The notes under the pieces are model-generated. The model searched no databases and was not told where the DNA came from. It saw only the letters and a program-made list of their open reading frames with translations. From a virus: a stretch of 25,059 nt of DNA. The stretch is taken from the IMG/VR virus record IMGVR_UViG_3300025840_000226, positions 1 through 25,059 of that record; one strand, given 5' to 3'. Position 1 is the first letter of the stretch. Each line of letters begins with the position of its first letter. A program made the position numbers and the translations under genes. This document shows positions 4,053-21,463 of this stretch, in pieces.

Positions 4053-4373
4053 TTAGTATTCTCCTGGTCGTTTCATACGTTCTACTGAGTTAGATGCTAC
4101 TTTTAATGAGTTTACTTCAGTATATTTACTCATAGCATTCTTTTTTAACGCTTCAAACGCCTCAGACGGTGGTTTTTGTGTTATTAACTTTACCTTAAAC
4201 GTATATCTCTTAGCATTTTCATCAGAACCTGCAATAGTACAAGTAGTTACCCCTGGAAGTGCACGAATTAAGTCAGCTAATACAGAAGGACTAGTATCTC
4301 TACTGATTACCTGTATCATAGCACGATAAGGTGTGTAAGTTGCTTCGTCTAGTATAATTTTAGATAACTTCAT
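4053..4373 (-). CDS. Small neck-cluster protein, possible ferredoxin-like fold
   Basis: This is an uncharacterised 106-aa protein. Predicted strands and helices alternate as beta-alpha-beta-beta-alpha (Y-R-A-M-I-Q-V...V-L-A-D-L-I-R-A-L-P-G-V...Y-T-F-K-V-K-L-I), suggesting a ferredoxin-like fold. Its start overlaps the stop of the gp13-like gene (TAATG), so the two are translationally coupled. The first residues, MKLSKIILDE followed by A, fit the gp21-type cleavage pattern I-x-x-E|A or L-D-E|A. That may be chance, since the preceding tag is only 10 residues. Its place between gp13-like and gp14-like genes suggests a head-tail joining role (inference). Confidence 0.6.
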   Translation of the reverse strand: MKLSKIILDEATYTPYRAMIQVISRDTSPSVLADLIRALPGVTTCTIAGSDENAKRYTFKVKLITQKPPSEAFEALKKNAMSKYTEVNSLKVASNSVERMKRPGEY

Positions 4374-5518
4374 TAGCCAATATATATTGTCATAGGTACA
4401 TCCCCTAATGTTTTCTTAAGATTTTCACTTTCATTAGCCTTCCTTTCAAGTTGAGCTTGTCTAGAAGTTTGATCTAACATTTCTTTTAATTGAGTAAGAA
4501 GTGATTCTTTTTCCGTTCTAGCATCTGTTAGTAAGTCTGCTTGATTTAAGGTAGCTTCTGAACCTGGTACCGGTACTACTTGGTACTTTCCTCTTATATA
4601 TGCTAGTAATTCTTTAGCTAGAGCTAATGTATATCTGAAAATCCACTGTCTTCCTACACTGTTTATGTGATTATATGTAGGGTTACTGTAAGGAACTTCT
4701 GCTACATTAGTAATAAGTTCAGCTCCATCAAGTAAACTAGCTGCTTTCTTATCATTGACCTTATAATATTCAAATCTTAGATTATAATTTGATTTAGGAA
4801 CTGGGAATATCTTTATTCTGTTGTTTACTACTTCAAAAGAGTAAGAAGATCTTCTAATCTGATCATTAAATTCAATAGCCTGTACCTTTAGAATATCAAA
4901 AGAAGCAGGCATTAATAGGAAGTTTACACCTGGGCTGTAAGATCCAAAGTCAAAAGCATCCATTAATGATTGAATACCTGTTCCAGTACCGGCATATGGG
5001 TCGAAATAACGTAGTATAGCAGGTGGTGCTTCATAAAACACTCTTCTGATTTCAATGCTTCCATCAATACCTTCAGCTGTAGCCCATGCATCTAAGTTAT
5101 AATCTTGAATAGATTTAGTAACTGCTAAAGAACCAGTGTACCTTGTTACAAACCCTCCAACTTCGGCTTCGGTACCGTAGTTTTTAGATATATTTACTAC
5201 TCTATCTAATGAAGGGTTAATAATTTTCTTATTTGCTGTACTTCCTGTTGAGGAGCCTTCAAGGTTTAGGTAATTTTCTCTAATTTTATATTGAAACACT
5301 TCATTACCGTATGTAGATACAGCTTCTTCGAAACAAGCGAAGAAATTACCATCTTGAAGTTCAACATCCATGAGGGGAAATCCAAGACGAGTACCGCAGA
5401 ACTTTGCTACTTTAACAGCATCAGTTTGAAAGTCGGTATCACTATCGTAAAATCCAAAAGGAGTAGAGCTGCCTGAGGTAAATGTTGCAGACCCATCCCA
5501 TATTGTTACATTAGCCAT
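4373..5518 (-). CDS. Neck/head-tail adaptor protein (gp13 position)
   Basis: This 381-aa protein begins at ATG 5518, just after a terminator and a TATTTATTA element, so it starts a transcription unit. Residues 50-80 (V-E-L-Q-D-G-N-F-F-A-C-F-E-E-A-V) match the helical motif D-V-E-L-x-x-x-x-F-x-x-x-F-E-x-A-V seen in many phage head-tail adaptors. The middle is beta-rich with aromatic residues. The C-terminus (residues 300-381) is a charged helix, with L-L-T-Q-L-K-E-M-L-D. By position it corresponds to T4 gene 13, whose product binds the portal vertex with gp14. I infer gp13 from synteny more than from sequence. It has no visible Shine-Dalgarno site. Confidence 0.55.
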   Translation of the reverse strand: MANVTIWDGSATFTSGSSTPFGFYDSDTDFQTDAVKVAKFCGTRLGFPLMDVELQDGNFFACFEEAVSTYGNEVFQYKIRENYLNLEGSSTGSTANKKIINPSLDRVVNISKNYGTEAEVGGFVTRYTGSLAVTKSIQDYNLDAWATAEGIDGSIEIRRVFYEAPPAILRYFDPYAGTGTGIQSLMDAFDFGSYSPGVNFLLMPASFDILKVQAIEFNDQIRRSSYSFEVVNNRIKIFPVPKSNYNLRFEYYKVNDKKAASLLDGAELITNVAEVPYSNPTYNHINSVGRQWIFRYTLALAKELLAYIRGKYQVVPVPGSEATLNQADLLTDARTEKESLLTQLKEMLDQTSRQAQLERKANESENLKKTLGDVPMTIYIG

Positions 5519-5595: not shown

Positions 5596-7185
5596 TTAGA
5601 TCTGAGCTAAGTCAGTAATAAAGATTTTACCATAGAATTCAGGTCTGATCATCTTCTTAGCATAACGAGTCATTAAACCTTTTCTAGGAGTGAAGGTTTC
5701 TGGATCGTATACTAGAGGAGTCATCATTAATGGTACATAAGGAGCATAAACTGCACCAGTTTCAAGGAATTGTGAACCTCTAAATCCTAATAACATAATG
5801 TTCTCAGTCATATAAGGGTTTTTGTATACTTTGAAACGGTTAGCCAAAGATCCTACTCTTTGAACTCCCATGTTGAATTCTGCCTGATCGCCATCTGTAG
5901 CAGCAGCATATCCTGGGATAGATTCAAGGATTGTTGCAACTGTTGGAGAAGTTACGATAAAGTTAGCACCACCACGTAGAGTTTTTTGGTGAATCTTGTT
6001 AGATACTTTTTGTACTTTAGTACCTAAAGTTTGGAACCACTGACCTTGAGTGTTGTAGAAATCAGAAGTTGAAGTAGTCCAAGCTGAACCATTCCATACT
6101 TTGTTGTTTTCTGCTGACCACTTGTCAGTAGTTTTAGCTTCAAGGATAAGCATATCTAAAATCTCTAGGTCAATTTCCATAGAGATATACTCAGAAAGAA
6201 GTGAAGTTAATTCTGCTTCAGCATCGATTGAGTGATATGCGTTAAGATCTTGGGCGAACTCTGGAGTCCACTGAGCTTTTAACTTTCTAGTCTTAGCAAC
6301 GATAGCCTCGCTAGCAAGTTTAACGTCGATCTCAGGAATAGAGATAGAAGTATCTACAGCTCTTGATGAATCTGCTTCATAGTCCCCACGGTCGTTATCT
6401 ACTGGTTGTTTGTGGTAGATAACAGTTGGAGTAATTGCTGTTGCACCAGCTGAAAGATCTGCTGTTGCTACTACGAATTTTACTACGTTACCAGATACAG
6501 AAGTATATTGAGGTTTAGTAATATCTACAGAAGCAGATAAAAGTCTAAATGCTCTTGCTCCAAGAAAATCAGCGTTATCTGAATTAGCAAAAGTTACTGA
6601 TACGGTAGCGTGGCTTCCAGTAAGTGCAGGATCGTATCCTACATCTGCTAAAGCTGCAGAACCAGTGTTAGTGCTTCCAGCAGTTTTTGATGCAGAATTA
6701 ATTGAATATCCAAACTGACCGGCGCCATAAAGACCACCTTCTACGTCAGTGTCAATAGCCATTTTGCTGTTAGCAGTTGATACGTTACCGTACATGTTAT
6801 CGTCATCAGTACGTCCGTTTCTTGTATCTCCGTATTTGAAGTCAAGATAGAATACTAGACCTGAAGGTAAGTTCATTGGTTGAACAGATACGAAATCTTG
6901 AGCAACGATTTGAGCGAATACCTTACGTACTAGAGGAAGAGCTACTCCAGCCCACTGCTCACCAGCACCGGCTGTAAAGGAACCTCCACCTACGTTTGTA
7001 GAGTTAGCTTCTGCTACGATTTGCTTAGCTTGGTTTTCAAGGATCATCGCCATGTTGTTTTTGTAGCGATCATCTGTGATACCTTCTAATAAACCGGAAG
7101 CAGACCACTTGTCAGCTAAACGAGCTGCATCAGCCTGAAGGCTTTTGTAGTTGTTTGAGCTTTCTAATAATTGATTAATTTCCAT
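5596..7185 (-). CDS. 23: Major capsid protein (gp23-like)
   Basis: This 529-aa protein builds the head shell; T4 gp23 is 521 aa. The N-terminus (residues 1-59) is a charged helical propeptide. After it comes I-V-A-E|A-N at residues 56-61, equal to the T4 gp21 cleavage site before the mature N-terminus. The following segment, with V-F-A-Q-I-V-A-Q-D and then V-S-V-Q-P-M-N-x-P-x-G-x-V-F (about residues 88-112), matches the gp23 core I-x-x-x-Q-P-M-x-x-P-x-G. Further on, R-K-L-K-A-Q-W-T-P-E-F-A-Q-D-L-N-A-Y-H corresponds to the T4 segment R-Q-L-K-A-x-x-S-x-E-L-A-Q-D-L. Residues about 165-280 are Ala/Ser/Thr-rich, possibly a surface insertion. It follows scaffold gp22 by 19 nt with no promoter between, so the two are co-transcribed, and a terminator closes the unit. 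No Shine-Dalgarno site is visible despite expected high expression. Confidence 0.95.
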   Translation of the reverse strand: MEINQLLESSNNYKSLQADAARLADKWSASGLLEGITDDRYKNNMAMILENQAKQIVAEANSTNVGGGSFTAGAGEQWAGVALPLVRKVFAQIVAQDFVSVQPMNLPSGLVFYLDFKYGDTRNGRTDDDNMYGNVSTANSKMAIDTDVEGGLYGAGQFGYSINSASKTAGSTNTGSAALADVGYDPALTGSHATVSVTFANSDNADFLGARAFRLLSASVDITKPQYTSVSGNVVKFVVATADLSAGATAITPTVIYHKQPVDNDRGDYEADSSRAVDTSISIPEIDVKLASEAIVAKTRKLKAQWTPEFAQDLNAYHSIDAEAELTSLLSEYISMEIDLEILDMLILEAKTTDKWSAENNKVWNGSAWTTSTSDFYNTQGQWFQTLGTKVQKVSNKIHQKTLRGGANFIVTSPTVATILESIPGYAAATDGDQAEFNMGVQRVGSLANRFKVYKNPYMTENIMLLGFRGSQFLETGAVYAPYVPLMMTPLVYDPETFTPRKGLMTRYAKKMIRPEFYGKIFITDLAQI

Positions 7186-7204: not shown

Positions 7205-8323
7205 TTATTTAATAATTCCAGCTAATTTTTGCATTCTACGAACAGCATCACTAACTTCGTTAATTACTTCTGGTTTACTAGCTGTAGTACCAGTAGCTTT
7301 AGATGCCATTCCTTTTACTTTTGATTCTGAAACTTGTTCTTTTTTACTAGTAACAACATTTTCAGAAACTGTTTCAAATACTAATTTAACTTCTTTTACT
7401 GTTTCGGCTTTGTCGAAAGCAGCAATAATGTTAACTTTTTGTGATTCAGTAAGGTTATTTGCCTTAAAGATTTTATTCACATATAAAAGTTTAGAGTTGA
7501 GAAGGTTTGTTTCGTGAAGATCTTGTTTAAGTTGCTCAATAGTATCTAAAGCTTCTTTTAACTCTTCTTCACTTACAACACGGTTAATGTTAGTACCCTG
7601 AGCTTGAGAATCAGCAGTATCTTGAACTTCAGTTGAGTTAGCAGTTGATACTTCCTCTACTTTCTCTTCGTCTTTATCTTCACCTTCAGCTACTGTAGCT
7701 TCTAGTTCAGCAAGAAGTTCGTCAAGATCAATTTCTTCTTCTTCTCCAGGTACTTCCATATCGTCAGCGGGTTCTTCGAGGGGAGCTTCATCGCCCATAC
7801 CTTCGATGTCACCACCGTCCATGTCGTCCATTCCTAATTCTTCTTCTCCGCCGCCGCCAATTTCTTGAGCTACGATGTCACGAATCATGTCTTTAAACTG
7901 ATCAACAGTTATATTTCCAATTTCTTCGTCACCTTCTACGGCTTCTTCTTCCTCGCCTTCTAAATCGTCAGCGGGTTCTTCGATTTCGGCTTCTGCTTCG
8001 TCCTCTGATTCTTCAGAGTCATCCTCGGCTTCTTCCTCGTCATCAGCTTCTACTACTTCTGGAGCAGCTGTAAGATCTTCCTCAATTGCTTCGTCTTTTT
8101 TGTCTTTGTCCATTCCTTCTTCTACTTCATCTTCTTCGACTTCGTTTACTACTTCTTCTACTTCTTCGGATTTGTCTTCCATTTCTTGTAGTTTAGCAGC
8201 TAACATGTCTTTTAGATGAGGAGTTAAAGTCTCTTCTAAAGCTTCTTTAGCGTTTGCAATAGCGGCTTCACGTACAGATTTTGCTTCAGCAATAGCTTGC
8301 TTGAATAAATCTTTGTTTGCCAT
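7205..8323 (-). CDS. 22: Prohead scaffold/core protein (gp22-like)
   Basis: This 372-aa protein lies between the protease region and gp23, the T4 position of gene 22, the main internal scaffold of the prohead, which gp21 degrades during maturation. Residues 50-230 are extremely rich in Glu and Asp with almost no aromatic residues. Residues 245-330 form a predicted coiled coil (E-E-L-K-E-A-L-D-T-I-E-Q-L-K). The C-terminus is a short basic amphipathic helix (A-V-R-R-M-Q-K-L-A-G-I-I-K), a typical capsid-binding element of scaffolds. Several L/I-x-E sites are present. A 20-bp perfect repeat in the gene encodes EEPADD twice. It has its own leader with a promoter-like element and two inverted repeats. 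Confidence 0.85.
   Translation of the reverse strand: MANKDLFKQAIAEAKSVREAAIANAKEALEETLTPHLKDMLAAKLQEMEDKSEEVEEVVNEVEEDEVEEGMDKDKKDEAIEEDLTAAPEVVEADDEEEAEDDSEESEDEAEAEIEEPADDLEGEEEEAVEGDEEIGNITVDQFKDMIRDIVAQEIGGGGEEELGMDDMDGGDIEGMGDEAPLEEPADDMEVPGEEEEIDLDELLAELEATVAEGEDKDEEKVEEVSTANSTEVQDTADSQAQGTNINRVVSEEELKEALDTIEQLKQDLHETNLLNSKLLYVNKIFKANNLTESQKVNIIAAFDKAETVKEVKLVFETVSENVVTSKKEQVSESKVKGMASKATGTTASKPEVINEVSDAVRRMQKLAGIIK
7760..7983 (-). repeat. Paired 20-bp direct repeat inside the scaffold gene
   Basis: The same 20 bases occur at 7760-7779 and 7964-7983. Both are in the same frame and encode EEPADD with identical codons. In a low-complexity acidic region this points to internal duplication or recombination between acidic blocks. 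Confidence 0.8.
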
Positions 8324-9154: not shown

Positions 9155-9733
9155 TTAGGCTCTTAATATGTCGTTAATAATTGAATCTAGATTGGAATAT
9201 TTAGAAACTCTTACTTTACCTTCTTGTAAAGATACTGGGTTCATAAATGCTCCATGTGTAGAAGGATTAGATACAAAATCCCAACATACTAATTCAAAGT
9301 CGTCTTGAACTTCTAAAGTTCCTTCGTTTGTTTGTTGAACTGAACCGGTCCCTCTAGATGAGATTCCAATTGTATGTCCTGCTTTAATAATCTCTTTAAC
9401 GATGTTACCTGCAGGGGTATTAAGTAGTTCTACACGTCCCATAAGGTCGTCTCCCTTCCACCATAACTCTTTTACTATGTGAGAGGCGTTCTTTAGAGAG
9501 ACAACAGGAGACTCTGGATGATCAAGTTCTCCGAATGCATTACCGTTCTTTACAAATTCGTCTGTGTATCTTTTAGTTTCTCTTTCAAGAATAGGTTTAG
9601 CATATACTCTACCGTTTTGATTTTGAGCGGATGCTCTTTGCATTACACCTTCTACTTCAAAGACTCCAGGTTTTGTTTTGGACTCTCTGATGGTAGGTCT
9701 AAATGGCGTAATGTCTACTAATAATTCTGCCAT
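9155..9733 (-). CDS. 21: Prohead maturation protease (gp21-like, serine peptidase)
   Basis: This 192-aa enzyme should trim the scaffold, capsid protein and internal proteins inside the prohead. T4 gp21 is about 212 aa and belongs to the herpesvirus-assemblin-like serine peptidases. Residues 38-45 (Q-N-Q-N-G-R-V-Y), His72 in E-L-D-H-P-E, and Ser125 or Ser126 in I-G-I-S-S-R-G-x-G are the family's landmark motifs, giving the catalytic His and Ser. Near the C-terminus L-Q-E|G at residues 169-172 is itself a good cleavage site, which would fit autoprocessing. It starts 3 nt after the stop of the 508-aa gene, so it is expressed with the core proteins. Its presence supports the cleavage sites noted in its neighbours. 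Confidence 0.93.
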   Translation of the reverse strand: MAELLVDITPFRPTIRESKTKPGVFEVEGVMQRASAQNQNGRVYAKPILERETKRYTDEFVKNGNAFGELDHPESPVVSLKNASHIVKELWWKGDDLMGRVELLNTPAGNIVKEIIKAGHTIGISSRGTGSVQQTNEGTLEVQDDFELVCWDFVSNPSTHGAFMNPVSLQEGKVRVSKYSNLDSIINDILRA

Positions 9734-9736
9734 ATC

Positions 9737-11263
9737 TTAGAAGTTTGGTGTAAATACTGTATCTTTTGGCTCTTCAATAATTTCAGTTTCACCTAATGGT
9801 CTTTCACCTGAATTATGAGCATCAACGTCTGCTTGAGTAATTGTTCTAACTTTAGGTAAATTTATTTTACTAAAGAAAGATCCTTTTTTGATTACTTTAC
9901 TAAGGTCTTGTCTAAAAGCTGATTCAAGGCCAGGAGCAATGAATCCTCCGATCTTTAATCCTTCTTCGTTTTCAAACCCTGAGGTTTTTTCAAAAACGTT
10001 TTTAATCTTATCGGCCATCTTATCGTAGAAAGTTTCAATTTCTGTTACGATATTTTCTAATTCATTTACTACTGGTTTAACACCTGGGAATGTTTCATAT
10101 GATTCAGCCCAATCGGCTAACTTTACAGTAGCAGCTTCGTTAATAACGTCTTCGTTTAAAGTCTTTTTAATAATGGACTTGATAGCTTCTTTTAACTGTT
10201 TTTCTTGTTCTTTATTTTTTTCTTTAGCTATATCGTAAGTAGATTTTTTACCAGCTAGTCTATCTTGAGTATGAGCTCTTTGTATTCTTTTCATTGTATA
10301 GCTTTCATCTTTACCCATTGCTTTTTTAATGGCTTTGTCTTTAGCAGCCATATAATCATCTCCATCGATGTCTCCATCTCCGTCATGATCTTTTCCTTTA
10401 GCTTCAGTTCTACCTGCAAGCTGGTTGCGTTGCTCTCTTTCGAAGTCAGCATCAGTATTAAGTTCTACTTCTTCCTCTTCTCCTTCTCTAAAATCAGAAG
10501 CAGTTTCGTAGTTAGCGTAAATATATTCTTCAAACTCTCCTTCAATATCAGCTCCATCTAATAGATCTTGATAGTGTGTTTTGATAAAGTCTTTGACTAC
10601 ACCGGCAGTAATTTCTGGGTATTTAGTTCTTAAAGCTCCTACTACTTTTCCTAATAGATTCTTTTTAGCGTCTTCAGACATCTTAGAAGTTTCTTTATCT
10701 ATAGCTTTTTCAGTATCTTCTGGTGATCTACCCATTTCTTTCTCCCACTCCTCATCATCGATATACATATTTTCTTTTAACGTAGCTTTTTTCATATCGT
10801 TAAAAGTATCCTTATCGGCTGCTCCTCTCTTAACTTCTTTTTCTTTGTCGTGTTTATCTACTTTATTAGATTCACCGGCCATTAAGTTAAGGTAGTGGTT
10901 GGCATCTTTTTCAAGATTATCTTTTGCTTTTTTCTCAGCTTGTTTAAACTCTTCTCCTTTTACAGTTTGAGCAGCCATGTCAATACCCATTGTTTGTAAC
11001 TCGATTCTAATACCTCTATCAAGAGCGTCAAGTGAATAAGTTAGGGCTGGTCTATCGTCGTAAACTTTCATATTAGAGAATGCTTTTTTAGGAGCTTCAA
11101 ATAGTAATTGACGGTTTTTAAGGATCTGTACTGTAGAGTCAAATCCATCGTATTGAGAGATGTACATAGGGTATGTTTGTCTCATCTGACGAACAAACTC
11201 CTTCTTTGCCATCTTACCTTCGTTGACGGCTTTATATTTTTCTGTTGCAGTTACTTGTCTCAT
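9737..11263 (-). CDS. Large prohead core-type protein with EF-hand-like loop and internal cleavage sites
   Basis: This 508-aa protein occupies the place of T4 core genes 67/68, between portal and protease. It is highly charged. Candidate gp21-type sites are L-F-E|A (54-57) and I-N-E|A (374-377). The second follows a helix, L-K-E-A-I-K-S-I-I-K-K-T-L-N-E, that resembles the N-terminal tags of neighbouring proteins. Cutting there would release a folded-looking C-terminal domain of 132 aa. Residues 292-303 form a calcium-binding-type loop, D-x-D-x-D-G-D-I-D-x-x-D. Residues 100-280 are Lys/Glu-rich and probably disordered or helical. Its ATG overlaps the 77-aa gene stop (ATGA), giving translational coupling. 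I propose an internal core or scaffold-associated protein that is cut into pieces; no specific homologue is named. Confidence 0.65.
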   Translation of the reverse strand: MRQVTATEKYKAVNEGKMAKKEFVRQMRQTYPMYISQYDGFDSTVQILKNRQLLFEAPKKAFSNMKVYDDRPALTYSLDALDRGIRIELQTMGIDMAAQTVKGEEFKQAEKKAKDNLEKDANHYLNLMAGESNKVDKHDKEKEVKRGAADKDTFNDMKKATLKENMYIDDEEWEKEMGRSPEDTEKAIDKETSKMSEDAKKNLLGKVVGALRTKYPEITAGVVKDFIKTHYQDLLDGADIEGEFEEYIYANYETASDFREGEEEEVELNTDADFEREQRNQLAGRTEAKGKDHDGDGDIDGDDYMAAKDKAIKKAMGKDESYTMKRIQRAHTQDRLAGKKSTYDIAKEKNKEQEKQLKEAIKSIIKKTLNEDVINEAATVKLADWAESYETFPGVKPVVNELENIVTEIETFYDKMADKIKNVFEKTSGFENEEGLKIGGFIAPGLESAFRQDLSKVIKKGSFFSKINLPKVRTITQADVDAHNSGERPLGETEIIEEPKDTVFTPNF

Positions 11264-11493
11264 AAGTAATCAAATCCTTTAGTATGTGATGGCCTTTTTG
11301 GCCTTTCTTGCTGCTTCCAGCCAAGTTTTGTTAATGTCTTTTTTGCTCGTTTACCTCTACCGAATGCCTTTGGTGTAGCATATTGAGCTCCGTCACCAGG
11401 AGTAAAAGAAGCACCGCCTACATTAGTAACGTTAGCTTCATCTAACTCTTGTATTACTTCCCTTACTAATGAAATTAGCTCTGATCTTTTCAT
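11260..11493 (-). CDS. 77-aa basic protein with capsid-targeting tag and a copy of the mature gp23 N-terminus
   Basis: Residues 1-19 are an amphipathic tag, MKRSELISLVREVIQ ending in L-D-E, followed by Ala20, a perfect gp21-type site. The predicted mature protein starts ANVTNVGGASFTPGDG. This matches the mature N-terminus of the major capsid protein at 15 of 21 positions, counting the preceding Glu. The rest is strongly basic (G-R-G-K-R-A-K-K-T and later R-P-K-R-P). It overlaps both neighbours (TAATG upstream, ATGA downstream). By position and size it resembles T4 gp67, an 80-aa core protein, but gp67 is acidic. Likely an internal or shell-bound protein (inference). Whether it docks on a gp23 partner through the shared segment is unknown. 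Confidence 0.75.
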   Translation of the reverse strand: MKRSELISLVREVIQELDEANVTNVGGASFTPGDGAQYATPKAFGRGKRAKKTLTKLGWKQQERPKRPSHTKGFDYL

Positions 11494-12347
11494 TACAGAG
11501 ATTTTAATTCATTTACTAAGTCGTAATATTGCAATAGGTTTACTAAATGACTGTCGTTAATTCTATCTTTATTTGATAACGGTTTAATAGATTTAGCGAC
11601 TTCTTCTAGTTTAATTTTTACTACTTCATCTTTTACTTTAGCTGATAAATTTCTAACTGCTGAGGCAATTTTATTAATTTCTTCGTTAACTAAAGTACGA
11701 AGTCGTGATTGTGAATTGACTGAAGTAATAAATTCTTTCAAAATATTTTTTTGCTCAGGAAGTAAGTTTTTATACTTATTGTTAAACTTCTCTAAAAGAA
11801 TTTTAAAAGTTAAAAGTTTTAAATCTTTATCATATTTAGAATACTCTTCAATTAAAGTATCTTTTACATCCTCCTCCTTTTGAGGTTCTGATGTAAGGTG
11901 TTCTAGTATAGTAGTTTTATTTTCAACTAAAGTTTGAGGATCAACTAATAGATCGTTATTTTGAGCTTCTAATAAACAGTATAAGGCAGCAAGAGGTTTA
12001 TAGTCTTTTACTTGCATACCAAAAAACTCATTAACATCGTAATGTTTTTTAATCTCAGAAATTAATTCGTACTTTTGAGTTCGTAATGTTTTTTGATCTA
12101 ATTTTCTAGATACTTCTGTAATAGTAGAAACGATAGCTTCTGCTTTAGATTGGCTAACGTTCTTATTTTTAACTATAAATTCGTAAAGCCTATACTCTTT
12201 TGATAGAGAAGACTTAGATCCGTAGAATTGTTTAAGTATTGGAATAGCGGCTGAGTCTTTATTATTTAAAGTATCAGCAGCAATTTGCTTTACTAGCAAT
12301 TCAAAAATGAGACCTGTATTACGAAATTTTGAGTGTTTTATCTTCAT
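11493..12347 (-). CDS. All-alpha protein next to the portal gene, uncharacterised
   Basis: This 284-aa protein is Lys/Glu/Leu-rich and predicted to be almost entirely helical, with coiled-coil stretches around residues 170-260 (L-L-E-K-F-N-N-K-Y, I-N-K-I-A-S-A-V-R-N). It has no signal peptide, membrane segment or recognised catalytic motif. The first residues, MKIKHSKFRNTGLIFELLV, look like a conserved start in related phages, but I cannot name a family. It follows its own TATTTATA element 17 nt upstream and runs directly into the 77-aa gene. Its place between portal and core proteins suggests a prohead core or portal-assembly role, by analogy with the T4 gene 20-67-68-21 interval (inference). 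Confidence 0.6.
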   Translation of the reverse strand: MKIKHSKFRNTGLIFELLVKQIAADTLNNKDSAAIPILKQFYGSKSSLSKEYRLYEFIVKNKNVSQSKAEAIVSTITEVSRKLDQKTLRTQKYELISEIKKHYDVNEFFGMQVKDYKPLAALYCLLEAQNNDLLVDPQTLVENKTTILEHLTSEPQKEEDVKDTLIEEYSKYDKDLKLLTFKILLEKFNNKYKNLLPEQKNILKEFITSVNSQSRLRTLVNEEINKIASAVRNLSAKVKDEVVKIKLEEVAKSIKPLSNKDRINDSHLVNLLQYYDLVNELKSL

Positions 12348-12376: not shown

Positions 12377-14275
12377 TTAGTTACCTAAATCTTTAATGTT
12401 GTCTTCGTTAAGAAGATTAGACTCTGATTTAGATTCTTTTTTAAATACAATACTTTTTAATGCGTCTTTAGTCTTATGGTAAACGGCTTGAGTTGTAAGG
12501 TGCTCCATTACGTTATCATTATCTGATGGATATCCTCCGTGCATACCGTGGACACCTAGTGGATCACGTCCTCCTACTGGGTTTTGATTAGTTCCGTATA
12601 CAGATGCCTTATCTCTCGGTCTACCGCCTTCTGGACCGGATTCATCCCATTTAGGTTCCATTTCTGAGTATCCTTGTGGTACTTCTCCAGGCTCTCCGCC
12701 TTTAGGGGTTGAAGTAGCTCTTCTACCATACATAGAAGCTAAATCGTGAGGAGTACCGTATGTCATTCCAGACTTAGCCGGATCGTTTCCTTCATTTTCT
12801 ATCTGAGCTAATCTAAACATAGCTTTGCTGTCTTCTCTAACTAAATCTCTTTCTTGAATGTATTGATCTTCGGACATATCAAATATTTTCTCATATATGT
12901 AATCTGATGAGAACATTTTGGTGTCCTTCATTTGAGAAGCTAAATCAATTTTCTCCTTAAGAAGTGCTACTTTTTCTTGTTCAAAAATAATAGAAGGTGT
13001 AGTAAGTCTAATTTCAAAGTTAGTTAAAGACTCACCGGTAAAACCTTGCGTGTATAAATGAACTAGAGCTATTTTAGTTAGCTCTGATTCCATTATTTTC
13101 TGTACTCGTTCTACTGTTCTTGCAAAACGAATATCTTCTGCAGCCAGTGTTGCTTTCCCGTTTAGATCTCCTTCAAATCCAAAATACGCTTTTGGTATTT
13201 TAAGAGCAGCAAACATTTTAGCCTGTAGGTACTGTACGTCAGTTACTCCATCATATTCTAAACCTTTTGTAGTTTCGATTCTTGTAGAAGTATCTCCTCC
13301 ACGAACTGGAAGGTAAAAATCTTCCATCATATTCTGAAGGTTAAAACGTAAGTTATATTGACCATCATCTCCTACATAAGGAGTCTTCTTCATTTGATTG
13401 ATAGTCTTTTGCATAAATTGTTCTACCTCGTTGGGTGGAACGTTTCCTACGTTAATGTAGAACATTCTCTTTTCTGGAGCTCTCATGATTCTATGAATCA
13501 GCATTGCATCCTCCATTAAAGTAACTTGCTTAAAAATCTTTCTTGCAGGCTCTAAATAAGAACGTCCGTAAGGTAGGTAATTTGTATCTGAGATTAATCT
13601 AAAGTGTGCAATCTCGTAATTATCAAACTCAACAACTCTTTGATCCCCTTTTCTTTTCGGTAAGTAGTTAGGGTGTTGAGAAGAAGCTAATCCATCAGGG
13701 TCTAGTTTAAATGAAACTTTAGAAGGATTTTCTGGGTCTGTTCCTTCCTCTCTAATCATATGATATACCGTATAGGGTAGAACATTGTAAACTCCGAACT
13801 TCTCTGCTATTTCTAGCTTTAGGAAAAAGTCTCCGTATTTACACATGTTTCTTGTCCAAGACCATAAATTAAACTCAATGTTCAGTACATCATAGAATAA
13901 GTTATAGAGTACTCGTTGAATATTCTCATCAGATGATTTTATTGCTAGTATTTCATTTTGATCATTTTTAACCGTAGCTTCATCAGCTATAATATCTAAC
14001 GCAGAAGCTATAATAGGATCGGTATCCATTGCTTCATAGTCAGAATATAATTGGATTCTTAATGTTTGGTAATTAAGATTCGGATTAAAGATATTTTTAT
14101 TATTGTAAATATACAAACGACTAAACCTGTCTATAAGTGAATTAGTTTGATATCTACCGGTAGTCTGTATTTGATTAATATCTGCTACTTTAAGCTCATC
14201 TCCTCCTACGTTTCTGATTACTATATCAGAAGCGAAAAGACGTTTCAGCCTACCAAAAATTGAAGTGTCCGCCAT
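12377..14275 (-). CDS. 20: Portal vertex protein (gp20-like)
   Basis: This 632-aa protein forms the dodecameric DNA channel at the head vertex; T4 gp20 is 524 aa. Gp20 landmarks are present: R-M-F-Y-I-N-V-G-N-V-P-P around residue 270, then M-M-E-D-F-Y-L-P-V-R-G-G-D-T-S-T-R-I-E-T (T4 has M-L-E-D-F-W-L-P), D-V-Q-Y-L-Q-A-K-M-F-A-A-L-K-I-P-K-A-Y-F, and a Y-G-D-F-F-L-K-L-E wing motif near residue 147. The extra 100 residues are a Gly/Pro-rich, probably disordered tail (about 510-600) ending with L-L-N-E|D close to the C-terminus. It has its own promoter-like element and follows the terminase gene by 27 nt. In T4 these genes are separated by sheath and tube genes 18 and 19, which are absent here. 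Confidence 0.92.
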   Translation of the reverse strand: MADTSIFGRLKRLFASDIVIRNVGGDELKVADINQIQTTGRYQTNSLIDRFSRLYIYNNKNIFNPNLNYQTLRIQLYSDYEAMDTDPIIASALDIIADEATVKNDQNEILAIKSSDENIQRVLYNLFYDVLNIEFNLWSWTRNMCKYGDFFLKLEIAEKFGVYNVLPYTVYHMIREEGTDPENPSKVSFKLDPDGLASSQHPNYLPKRKGDQRVVEFDNYEIAHFRLISDTNYLPYGRSYLEPARKIFKQVTLMEDAMLIHRIMRAPEKRMFYINVGNVPPNEVEQFMQKTINQMKKTPYVGDDGQYNLRFNLQNMMEDFYLPVRGGDTSTRIETTKGLEYDGVTDVQYLQAKMFAALKIPKAYFGFEGDLNGKATLAAEDIRFARTVERVQKIMESELTKIALVHLYTQGFTGESLTNFEIRLTTPSIIFEQEKVALLKEKIDLASQMKDTKMFSSDYIYEKIFDMSEDQYIQERDLVREDSKAMFRLAQIENEGNDPAKSGMTYGTPHDLASMYGRRATSTPKGGEPGEVPQGYSEMEPKWDESGPEGGRPRDKASVYGTNQNPVGGRDPLGVHGMHGGYPSDNDNVMEHLTTQAVYHKTKDALKSIVFKKESKSESNLLNEDNIKDLGN

Positions 14276-17806: not shown

Positions 17807-18673
17807 TTATGCTTCTGGTTCTGCTCCGTCTTCGAAATCTATCGGCTCATCGGTTAAGTCTTCTCCTCCACCTTCTTCACCGCCTGAATCAGCTCCACCT
17901 AAATCTTCGCCGCCTTCAGCGCCTCCTTCTTCTCCAGGGAAGTCTCCTCCACCGCCGCCACCGCCTCCGGTGTCTGTATCAAATTCTCCTCCTTCTTCTC
18001 CGGCTCCTTTCATTGGAGACTCTCTATAAAGAATAGCTAGTTTGTCTATGGCCTGCTGATAATCGGCAATATTAGAAAGTAAGTATCTTTTACCTAATAT
18101 TTGAGCTTCAAAAGTCTTACCTGTCCATTTTAAGATATAATCTTGACCGTTTTTAAGGTTTACTCTAAATGAAGTTGGTCTTGGTGAAATCCAATCTATA
18201 GTATCTACAAACTCTTTGAAGTCTTCAGTTTGAAGTTTAATTATAGCTTGTCTTAAAGTTGGAAACTTAGCTAGTATAGTATCTGTAGCGTCTTCTAATA
18301 CTGTTTCTTCTCCAGCATCTGGATCTGGGTCTTCTTCTGGTGTTGTATCTTCTTCTTCGACTTCGTCTAAAAGTGATTCGTTTAGCTCTGAAGGAATATT
18401 AGTATCTAATATTTCTACTTGTTCTCCTTCTAAATCATCTAAAACACCTTGGTGGTATTTATTTGCAGGAAAATATAAAATAACTCCGTTAGGGTCATCA
18501 TTTATATCATAATTGATACCATGAATATCTTGTAATATAACTTGAGCTTTATTTTGAGAAGCAGCATCTTTAGGAATTTTTATATAATAAGTTCCTTCTG
18601 GTGCTTCATTGAGCTCAGATATTACTTCAGCGTATGCTTCTAATATAAGATTATTTAGATCCGTTCTTTTCAT
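17807..18673 (-). CDS. Tagged acidic protein with Gly/Glu-rich tail
   Basis: I choose the ATG at 18673 (288 aa) over an in-frame ATG at 18736, because from 18673 the protein starts M-K-R-T-D-L-N-N-L, matching the tag M-K-(R/K)-S-E-L used by the 77-aa and 48-aa proteins. The resulting overlap with the preceding gene is 23 nt. The tag ends in L21-N-E23|A24, an ideal gp21-type site, and the mature N-terminus would be [12 protein letters not shown]. Residues 24-90 form a small alpha/beta domain. An acidic linker (about 95-130) follows, then a second domain with [21 protein letters not shown] (about 160-200). The last 65 residues are almost only Gly, Glu and Asp. No known family is recognised. An internal head protein is the best guess. 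Confidence 0.6.
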
Positions 18674-20267
18674 CTGCAAATTTTTGAGCTTCTGGTTTTG
18701 TTTTGAAGCCTTTAATTCTTTTATCATTTTCTCCATCAGCAGATGTTTTCCAAACTGCCCAAGGAGTGTTTTTAGCCGAGCAAGGACGAACTACATATTT
18801 ACCTTCTTTGGCTTCTTGCATTTGACGTGAAGGTCCTGGTCCAAATTCAATATCAATTCCTACCTCTTGTGTAAACTGCTCTAAAAACTCATGAATATCG
18901 TTTCCAAAGTAATGACGAGCCATAAACTCAGTTACTTCGATAACTTCTGCCTGCTCATCACCAGTAGCGTCCATTGCTCTGGTTTTTATAAGCTCTATAA
19001 TATCGTCTGCTCCTCCAGCTCTTTCGTTTATGTTAGGATCTAATTCTTGTCCTGCTCCGATTCCTCCTACTGCTTGATCTAATTGAGCTTCTAATTCTCT
19101 TTTACGAGCAGTATGTTGTTTTAAAGCAGCTACTATTTTAGCTTTTGCTTCTCCTTCAGCAGTTTTATAATGCTGTGCAAGTTGTTTCATTTTACCAACT
19201 AAAGCATCGTATTCTTTTTTAATCTTATTAGCAGAAGCTTCTTTTAAATTTTCGTCTAAAAACTCTATAATAGCCTCTAATGCATCTACTGCAGATGTTC
19301 CTGGTTGTTCATCTATTAAAGCGATAGCATCTTTAGCTATCTGCATAACTTTGTCTGCTTCTTCTTGATTAGAATAAAATTGATGATCTCTTTCTTGATC
19401 TTCTTCCATTTCATCTTCTCTTTTACCAAAAGTTTTATGAACTAATGTATCTAATTTTTTATGAAATTTAGTTTCATCTTCTTTCGATGCTCCATCTTTA
19501 CTTTCTAATGCTAATTGATCTAATGCAGGTTGTTTTTCTTCTGCTTCTAAGTAATGTTGTGCAGCAGACATATATTCTCTGGCTAAGATTACTTTCTTTT
19601 GCCACCATTGAGGAAAATCTACTTCTCCGTCATGCTGATCGTATTTGTTTAACTGCTTATAAAGTTTTGCAGCATAAGTAGCTATATCGTATATATCTTT
19701 TTTAAGCATGTTTGGCTCGTCATCTTGATGACCTACGTCAAGATCTCCTCCGTCTGTATCAACATCTGTGCCTTCCTGAGCGTCTTGCTGAGCTTTTACC
19801 CAATCGTCAGAATTATACATTCTATCTATTGCTGGTATATCCTCATCTGATTCTTCACCTTCCATCTTATTAGCATTTTGCATTAACGCATATATTTTCG
19901 CAATAGTTTCTTGATCTTTAGGAGTTAATCTTTCCATTCTTTTTCTTTCTAAGTCTTCTGGATCGCCGGGTTTCATTTCTTTCACTTCTTGACCATCGGA
20001 TGATTTTATTTTATCTATATCGTCAGCGTCTTTTAAAGCATCTACTTCGTCGTCTCCTAACGATAGAGCAGCTGTTTTACCTGATTTAGGAGTTACAAGA
20101 TAAGTTTTTTCTTGTGCTTCATTAAGAAGTTTATATAAGGATTCCTTGAGAAGTTTTAATTTTTGAGTTTTTTCGGTAATATCTCTACCTGTATATTGTC
20201 CGTCTTTTATTTTTTCTAATGTAAGTTCACATTTAGTAAGACGGTCTTTTATCTCTTGATAGGTCAT
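18651..20267 (-). CDS. Large acidic multi-domain protein with DUF2188-like C-terminus and two predicted cleavage sites
   Basis: The ATG at 20267 gives 538 aa; a TTG two codons upstream is less likely. Residues 1-50 are a helical tag ending L-L-N-E50|A51, followed by [11 protein letters not shown]. Residues 60-190 are acidic and probably disordered. Residues about 200-250 contain an aromatic-helix motif ([16 protein letters not shown]). Residues 290-400 are long helices. A second site, M-Q-E485|A486, precedes a 53-residue domain (K-Y-V-V-R-P...W-A-V-W-K-T...[11 protein letters not shown]) that matches the DUF2188 pattern of a small beta-beta-alpha repeat with an aromatic W and a closing helix. 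I read it as a polyprotein-like core or internal protein. Its function is unknown. Confidence 0.6.
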
Positions 20268-20305: not shown

Positions 20306-20785
20306 CTATTCTTCTTCTAATATGTAATCATGAAGAACTCTAACTTTAGCAGGAATATTTAAAAATAAACAGCAGTAAAATCTAGTCCTTCCATCTATAA
20401 TATAAAGTTTTTTTTTAATTTCTAAAAATAATATTGGATGATAACTACTATCCTCTACTGATTGAAGTAATTCTTCTATGCTATATCCTCTGCTTATATC
20501 TCTAGGATGAGTCTCATCTCTTTCTTTTAGTAGGTTAATAAACTTATTAGTATTTTTTTCTCTAAGAATACGTAGTAAAAGCGTCTTACAGTATTTGGAA
20601 TTAGTTAAATTAAGAACTTCTTGGTATTTAGATATATTAAAAAAACTAGGGGGAGTGCTTTTTAAAATATTTAAAACATACTCTTTATTTAACTTTGAAG
20701 TAAATTCTTTTACATCAGGGTGCCATTGATTAAATAAATTTTCTACATCAATAACACTATAAAACTCTTTATTTATTTTTACCAC
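20306..20785 (-). CDS. ParB/sulfiredoxin-fold-like protein
   Basis: This 159-aa protein uses a GTG start at 20785 and overlaps the end of the 183-aa gene by 17 nt. The C-terminal 60 residues match the ParB N-terminal-type domain. A helix (S-I-E-E-L-L-Q-S-V) is followed by H-P-I-L-F-L-E-I[12 protein letters not shown] (residues 116-135) and [10 protein letters not shown]. The D-G-R-T-R segment corresponds to the nucleotide-binding/nuclease G-x-x-R motif of the ParB/Srx fold. There is no helix-turn-helix or C-terminal dimerisation domain, so a plasmid-type partition role is unlikely. Phage proteins of this kind act as nucleases, NTP-binding proteins or regulators. The N-terminal 95 residues are helical and unassigned. 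Confidence 0.6.
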
Positions 20786-21320
20786 CTTTCATATTGGCGC
20801 ACCAATGGTACATTTTTCCTTTCTCACCGCCATACTTCTTAGCCTTAGCTCGTAGGTCGGTTACAGATCCTTTACATGAGGCTCCTGATTTTTTAACTCT
20901 ACCGGGTCTAGATTTACCTTTTACTTTACCGTCGGCGTAGTTTTCGTTTTTAGAAAATACAGTAGGATCACCTTTTATTTCACCGTGGTTAAATCTAAGC
21001 TCAGATTCTATCCCCAACACTCCTAATTTTGCTCCTAAACGTTCTTCCGTTTTACTATCTCCTTTAAGTCTAGCGTTATAGTATTTAATGTATTCTAATG
21101 CTTCTTCTTTGGTAATTTCTTTTTCGTTTTCATATTCACCTTCTTCATTTGTGTAAATGTAAAAAGTTCCATGAACATCTCCTGAAAAGATCATTCGTAT
21201 TTGATCACTATCTAGATTACGTTTACCGTCAATAACACTAAGTACAGTAATGTACTTATCTATAGTAGCTTCTTCTCGAAGTACTTCTCTGACTAAATAT
21301 TTTAACTCTGATAGTTTCAT
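20769..21320 (-). CDS. Tagged protein with basic Cys-containing C-terminal module
   Basis: The N-terminus of this 183-aa protein, M-K-L-S-E-L-K-Y-L-V-R-E-V-L-R-E-E-A, belongs to the tag family found in the 77-aa and 48-aa proteins. Possible cleavage after L-R-E or E-E|A is less canonical. Residues 20-110 are a mixed alpha/beta domain (Y-I-T-V-L-S-V-I-D-G, G-T-F-Y-I-Y-T-N). The last 50 residues are strongly basic with two cysteines (Cys149, Cys174) in K-S-R-P-G-R-V-K-K-S-G-A-S-C and M-Y-H-W-C-A-N-M-K. I believe this module recurs in marine phage proteins, but I know of no function for it. The start overlaps the stop of the 48-aa gene (ATGA). The basic C-terminus could bind DNA in the head (inference). 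Confidence 0.6.
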   Translation of the reverse strand: MKLSELKYLVREVLREEATIDKYITVLSVIDGKRNLDSDQIRMIFSGDVHGTFYIYTNEEGEYENEKEITKEEALEYIKYYNARLKGDSKTEERLGAKLGVLGIESELRFNHGEIKGDPTVFSKNENYADGKVKGKSRPGRVKKSGASCKGSVTDLRAKAKKYGGEKGKMYHWCANMKGGKNK

Positions 21321-21463
21321 TTAACCTTAATGCAAACGTCTTTACCGTTTTTAGTACCAGCATAACGATATCCTTTCCAGCAAGCTTTACCGTCCACACC
21401 TTTTTTCTTTTCTGTTACCTGTACTACTTCTCGTACTAAAGATATGAGTTCTGATTTTTTCAT
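21317..21463 (-). CDS. 48-aa tagged basic protein
   Basis: This small gene runs from ATG 21463 to TGA 21317-21319. The first 15 residues, MKKSELISLVREVVQ, match the 77-aa protein's MKRSELISLVREVIQ at 13 of 15 positions. Between the two, at least six codons differ only synonymously, which argues for real coding and selection on the peptide. The remaining 33 residues are basic with two cysteines (G-K-A-C-W-K-G-Y-R-Y-A-G-T-K and D-V-C-I-K-V). The tag ends V-T-E followed by Lys, so a canonical cleavage site is absent. It begins 2 nt after the 116-aa gene stop and overlaps the 183-aa gene (ATGA), so translation is coupled. Probably a minor internal or DNA-binding protein (inference). Confidence 0.75.
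   Translation of the reverse strand: MKKSELISLVREVVQVTEKKKGVDGKACWKGYRYAGTKNGKDVCIKVK

Follow-up and report, generated by a model that had tools for sequence, protein, structure and literature searches.

In T4-like phages the major capsid protein acquires a new N-terminus by proteolysis (yielding gp23*), and this end locks the shell after expansion. Two proteins of the T4 prohead core, gp67 and gp68, are degraded to peptides, and what such small core proteins do has remained vague ever since these were described. The lock itself, termed the N-fist, comprises residues 66-91 of T4 gp23 (PMC7136217); it makes contact with four subunits spread over two capsomers and, upon expansion, passes from the inside of the prohead, where it is disordered, to the outer surface, where it is ordered (PMC9958956). 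N-fists are a described feature of gp23, but not of gp24; together with the I-domain linkers they help to form the Soc sites (PMC9958956). Five gp23 subunits face the portal at its vertex in T4, and their N-fists are disordered (PMC7136217).

A second relevant group comprises the T4 internal proteins IPI-III and Alt, which combine a short N-terminal capsid-targeting leader, removed by gp21 in T4, a gp21-type cleavage site, a basic mature protein and entry into the head. Their mature parts have defence or host-modifying functions (PMC3012670, PMC9026906), whereas the protein analysed here, which appears to share the above features, has a predicted mature N-terminus that imitates gp23. Read by analogy, this 77-residue protein is of the T4 internal-protein design, with a putative N-fist mimic in place of the mature N-terminus. 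In T4 the N-fist occurs only in the capsid protein; here a comparable segment is also seen in a second, unrelated protein.

Gene order and architecture of the 77-residue protein

The window, namely the whole stretch of DNA that was analysed, is a 25,059-base IMG/VR record representing a fragment of the head and tail region of a T4-like marine phage. All the genes described below, and the features within them, lie on its minus strand. It encodes a terminase, the portal protein gp20 (12377..14275; PF07230, 8e-73), a 284-residue protein (11493..12347), the 77-residue head protein (11260..11493; 8.6 kDa, pI 10.1), a 508-residue protein (9737..11263), the prohead protease gp21 (9155..9733; PF03420, 5e-35), a 211-residue protein, a gp22-like acidic scaffold (7205..8323; 372 residues, pI 4.1, charge -81), the major capsid protein gp23 (5596..7185; 529 residues; PF07068, 3e-81, phrog_138) and a neck protein. 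The scaffold was assigned by position and composition, and showed no family match in PHROGs or Pfam. The reading frames given for gp23 and the 77-residue protein in a preliminary description of this DNA were recovered as described. The gene for the latter overlaps the start of the 508-residue gene and the end of the 284-residue gene; PHROG and Pfam searches assign no function to these two neighbors, which separate it from the gp21 and portal genes, respectively. Within the 508-residue protein, a short stretch (10303-10394) carries DHDGDGDIDGDDY, an EF-hand-like calcium motif, with a 79% match over 92 bases to the DNA of cyanophage S-TIM5. Among named phages, those nearest to the window are the Flavobacterium immuto phages, which are 72% identical in DNA across 44% of the region and have the same order of portal, 284-residue protein, small protein, gp21, gp22 and gp23; the host assignment is based on this Flavobacterium relative alone.

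The 77-residue protein is encoded at approximately 300 loci, with a mean pN of 0.19 against a pS of 0.60, indicating that the gene is real and under purifying selection. Searches with it against PHROGs and Pfam domains gave nothing significant, tblastn recovered no match in the T4 group, and a profile search of the PDB with the family gave one weak match, to chain 'H10' (8fjf, E 0.006). The protein falls into three parts. The leader, residues 1-19 (MKRSELISLVREVIQELDE; 11437..11493), is a predicted helix resembling a capsid-targeting sequence and ends in a predicted gp21 site, LDE|A. It is followed by the N-fist-like segment, residues 20-39 (ANVTNVGGASFTPGDGAQYA; 11377..11436). The rest of the predicted mature protein, residues 40-77 (11263..11376), comprises a TPxAFGK motif and a strongly basic tail with RPKRPSHTKxFDYL. 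The AlphaFold2 model places helices at residues 3-20, 49-56 and 69-74, with a pLDDT of ~83 at the start of the leader, and the N-fist-like segment is predicted to be disordered (pLDDT ~50). The predicted mature part of 58 residues has a pI of 10.6, against 4.1 for the scaffold, and that of the tail (residues 41-77) reaches 11.2. Some orthologues of just ~57-62 residues lack the basic C-terminal tail and keep the leader, the segment and TPxAFGK. Orthologues without the RPKRPSHTKxFDYL tail, with the other three regions retained, were observed at loci L075, L079, L080, L081, L202, L209, L215 and L250, the last of which has lost the core of the segment as well as the tail.

A site of the form xxE|x[NS] is present in all 151 distinct homologues; at P3, 135 of these have L or I and the remainder M, V or T, and the glutamate occupies position 19 in 119 and lies within positions 16-22 in every one. 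This agrees with the cleavage rule of T4 gp21, L/I-x-E (PMC9026906). The features of gp21-processed, leader-bearing head proteins, namely a leader of ~10-20 residues, the L/I-x-E motif and an encoded cognate protease (9155-9733), are all found. Thus, the leader, the conserved site, the mimic and the basic tail mark the protein as a predicted gp21 substrate. The leader also resembles those of two other small proteins of the window, encoded at 20769-21320 and 21317-21463 (MKLSELKYLVREVLREE and MKKSELISLVREVVQ, respectively), a common leader type suggesting that this phage has a group of cargo proteins targeted to the head.

The preliminary description had regarded T4 gp67 as the positional counterpart of the protein. 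The location of the gene between portal and gp21 is in keeping with this, but the proteins themselves are dissimilar: gp67 is acidic, ending in a long Asp/Glu run, in contrast to the pI of 10.1 seen here, and lacks a match to the T4 N-fist (p 0.99). T4 gp68 resembles the 77-residue protein in its basic C-terminal half and in where its gene stands among the head genes. Neither gp67 nor gp68 qualifies as a counterpart in sequence, gp68 also failing to match the T4 N-fist (p 0.64). In T4 (L256) the N-fist scored above shuffles against gp21 (p 0.004, one of five tests), via a GDHG stretch inside the protease, and this similarity is probably due to chance.

Similarity to the N-terminus of mature gp23

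In the window, the gp23 propeptide (residues 1-59; 7009..7185) ends in IVAE and is followed by residues 60-79 (ANSTNVGGGSFTAGAGEQWA; 6949..7008), which align to T4 gp23 from residue 75. More precisely, residues 61-120 align in phmmer to residues 10-68 of mature T4 gp23, i.e. residues 75-133 of the full-length protein; since this alignment begins within the T4 N-fist (66-91; PMC7136217), the stretch is its counterpart. Like the T4 N-fist, it lies directly after the gp21 cut. It is this stretch that the 77-residue protein resembles: 15 of 21 positions are identical between E19-A39 and E59-A79 of gp23, as had been claimed. The accompanying statement that most of the matching codons have diverged holds by the narrowest margin, with seven of the 15 using the same codon and eight a synonymous one.

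The two segments align locally with a score of 69, whereas 5,000 shuffles of the 77-residue protein never exceeded 46, and gp23 is the second match (E 8.8e-6) when the whole protein is compared with the six frames of the window. Alignment of the two family profiles by hhalign gave a probability of 94.8 and an E-value of 4.9e-8, with the match confined to 26 columns at the cleavage site. ORFs from the window and from seven relatives, among them contigs of 191 kb and 154 kb and most of immuto, were also searched with a gp23 profile; gp23 came first, followed in the window and in the relatives other than immuto by the 77-residue protein or its homologue (E ~0.02-0.17 each). The homologue in immuto, which has no core motif (see below), was not found by this profile over the ORFs.

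The similarity begins directly after the gp21 site and is not followed by an N-arm or HK97 fold, the basic tail standing in their place. The gp23 segment often has two to three additional residues in its middle that are absent from the small protein. An AlphaFold2 model of gp23, with a mean pLDDT of 49.7, was too poor to use. In the relatives examined, the gp21-type site lies at the same place in both proteins. In a large clade (L084, L221, L231, L238 and relatives), gp23 is cut mostly before QS rather than AN, a shift mirrored in the small protein, whose site is followed by xS (QS, IS, MS or LS) in place of AN.

Covariation and joint loss of the two segments

Covariation between the segments was a question posed beforehand in the preliminary description, and was addressed with loci containing both genes, recovered in scans of sequence collections and mostly from metagenome contigs, initially 49 phages and then 82. 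Own pairs had a similarity of 0.507; this fell to 0.435 when partners were swapped at random and to 0.481 when they were swapped within close clusters (p 0.0002). The corresponding excess of 0.072 compares with a maximum of 0.026 in 1,000 simulations of independent evolution on a tree built from the protease and capsid-body sequences, although any distortion of this tree by recombination could make the resulting p-value too low. A stricter comparison of independent sister pairs was not significant for the 49 phages (9/16 positive, p 0.27-0.40; Wilcoxon p 0.27) and marginal for the 82 (16/25 positive; sign test p 0.11, Wilcoxon p 0.048); across 200 alternative pairings of the latter set favoring informative pairs, the median p was 0.008. 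The own-pair excess and, above all, the joint losses described below speak for covariation, but the strict sister-pair test lends it marginal support.

At the level of individual residues, the variants GET, GEN and GEG tend to co-occur in both genes of one phage. The clearest parallels are L169, with TQxGGSGF..GET in both genes, L272 (GET in both), L226 and L323 (GEN in both) and L157 (GEG in both); contrary pairs are L168 with L221 and L153 with L068. The neck protein (head-tail adaptor Ad2; 4373-5518), which starts MANVTIWDGSATFTSGSSTPFGF and looks N-fist-like by eye, served as a negative control. As a candidate third copy it was rejected: its N-terminus, MANVTIWDGSATFTSG, is similar but does not covary with gp23 (p 0.84) or with the small protein (p 0.29).

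In six of the 82 phages (L001, L233, L250, L254, L377 and L378), gp23 lacks the aromatic/glycine core of the segment, F-x-x-G-x-G. Both proteins carry it in 76 phages and neither does in five; loss from gp23 alone is seen once, in L254, where the small protein retains the core, and loss from the small protein alone never occurs (Fisher p 2e-7, uncorrected for the tree). This pattern was noticed post hoc. On the tree there are five losses in gp23 and four in the small protein, and all four of the latter fall on branches of gp23 loss. When four losses were placed at random on length-weighted branches, three or more coincided in 0.05% of trials and all four in none of 200,000. With L377 and L378 treated as a single loss, three of three coincide, as did none of 200,000 random placements. 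Homologues lacking the motif, which the preliminary description had regarded as refuting its proposal, do occur, but in company with a gp23 that also lacks it, so that this check speaks for the proposal rather than against it. A named example is immuto26A_199 of the Flavobacterium phage immuto, a 73-residue homologue encoded at the same locus that shares the leader type and the RPKRPSHTKxFDYL tail and has its predicted site at E16 but, like the immuto gp23, is without the F-x-x-G-x-G core. Another possible case of joint loss is the Microcystis phage Mel-JY01, whose gp23 is without the core and whose hp08, in the same gene interval and homologous by eye only, has NVTGNVDGYETPYAF after the predicted site and is likewise without it. 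Taken together, the gp23 and small-protein copies appear to be linked in evolution, and their shared retention and loss suggests a common binding place in the virus shell for the two.

The main rival to this reading holds that the shared stretch is an extended gp21 recognition site, with both substrates tracking changes in the protease. The start of the stretch exactly at the cut in both proteins, and the shift from AN to xS at P1'-P2' in both families in one large clade, would fit such an origin. Nevertheless, T4 gp21 needs only L/I-x-E (PMC9026906), and other predicted gp21 substrates of the window whose leaders are of the type seen in the 77-residue protein (20769-21320 and 17807-18736) do not contain the stretch. 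Moreover, the covariation extends as far as P18'-P19', and the cut site stays where the core has been lost from both proteins. Accordingly, we consider extended recognition rather unlikely. That the glycine-rich, predicted disordered segments are merely flexible Gly/Ser/Thr linkers, converged by composition after a cleavage site, finds a parallel in the neck protein N-termini, which are similar by eye without covarying. Such convergence is nonetheless improbable given a score far above that of composition-keeping shuffles, the ordered anchors F..G.G.Q[YW] and the joint loss.

The remaining alternatives concern the origin and maintenance of the match. A local match in otherwise unrelated proteins is the expected trace of a domain copy, and the resemblance might thus be mostly inherited from an old partial duplication of the gp23 N-fist codons, with no present common function. 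A relic of this kind would not be expected to track the gp23 of its own phage, yet the joint losses and the matched GET, GEN and GEG variants indicate that it does; nor would it readily account for the low pN of the segment (0.147, against a pS of 0.586), and we regard it as an unlikely explanation. Ongoing gene conversion keeping the two DNA segments alike would produce greater similarity in own than in swapped pairs, as observed at the protein level. However, codon identity at common residues is 0.437 within phages and 0.450 between them (p 0.75), and for QSST in L238 one gene uses the serine codons AGT TCT where the other has TCA AGC. The two segments are therefore kept alike at the protein level, and gene conversion seems highly improbable.

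A possible role at the gp23 N-fist site

The reading that we tentatively favor, with somewhat less than even confidence, is that the 77-residue protein is a gp21-processed head protein whose exposed N-terminus has been selected to bind the gp23 N-fist site. The sequences show a leader, a conserved site, gp23-specific mimicry, purifying selection and joint loss; how the protein would be cut, kept in the head and docked, and what its tail would do, we infer as follows. The helical leader of 19 residues would carry the protein into the prohead core, where gp21 would cut it after E19, at the stage at which gp23 is cut after E59. The peptide thereby exposed, imitating the gp23 N-fist, may bind the surface that receives gp23 N-fists at the contacts between capsomers, either during shell expansion or where gp23 supplies no N-fist, for example at sites facing the portal. 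With the basic tail holding the acidic scaffold or DNA, the protein could staple the shell from within or serve to fill sites.

A more specific proposal, which is possible but doubtful, is that a non-capsid virion protein coevolving with gp23 fills or competes for its N-fist sites, for example at the portal or the vertices, and thereby sets capsomer locking or the identity of the portal vertex. Docking receives no structural support from the segment, given its predicted disorder. Each gp23 also brings its own N-fist, and hence free N-fist sites are not known to exist, which counts against docking. A search with the gp23 profile detected no gp24-like second capsid gene in the near-complete relatives (loci L085-L122), suggesting that the vertices are built in some other way, in which the 77-residue protein could take part. 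In the open-access literature we found no description of capsid-arm mimicry by a prohead protein and no virion proteomics of Immutovirus.

If the favored reading is true, a second protein would gain the end of gp23 by the same cut, constituting a built-in molecular mimic of the capsid lock. This would offer a way into how capsid locks come to be positioned or blocked at particular sites, and into what the small prohead core proteins do.
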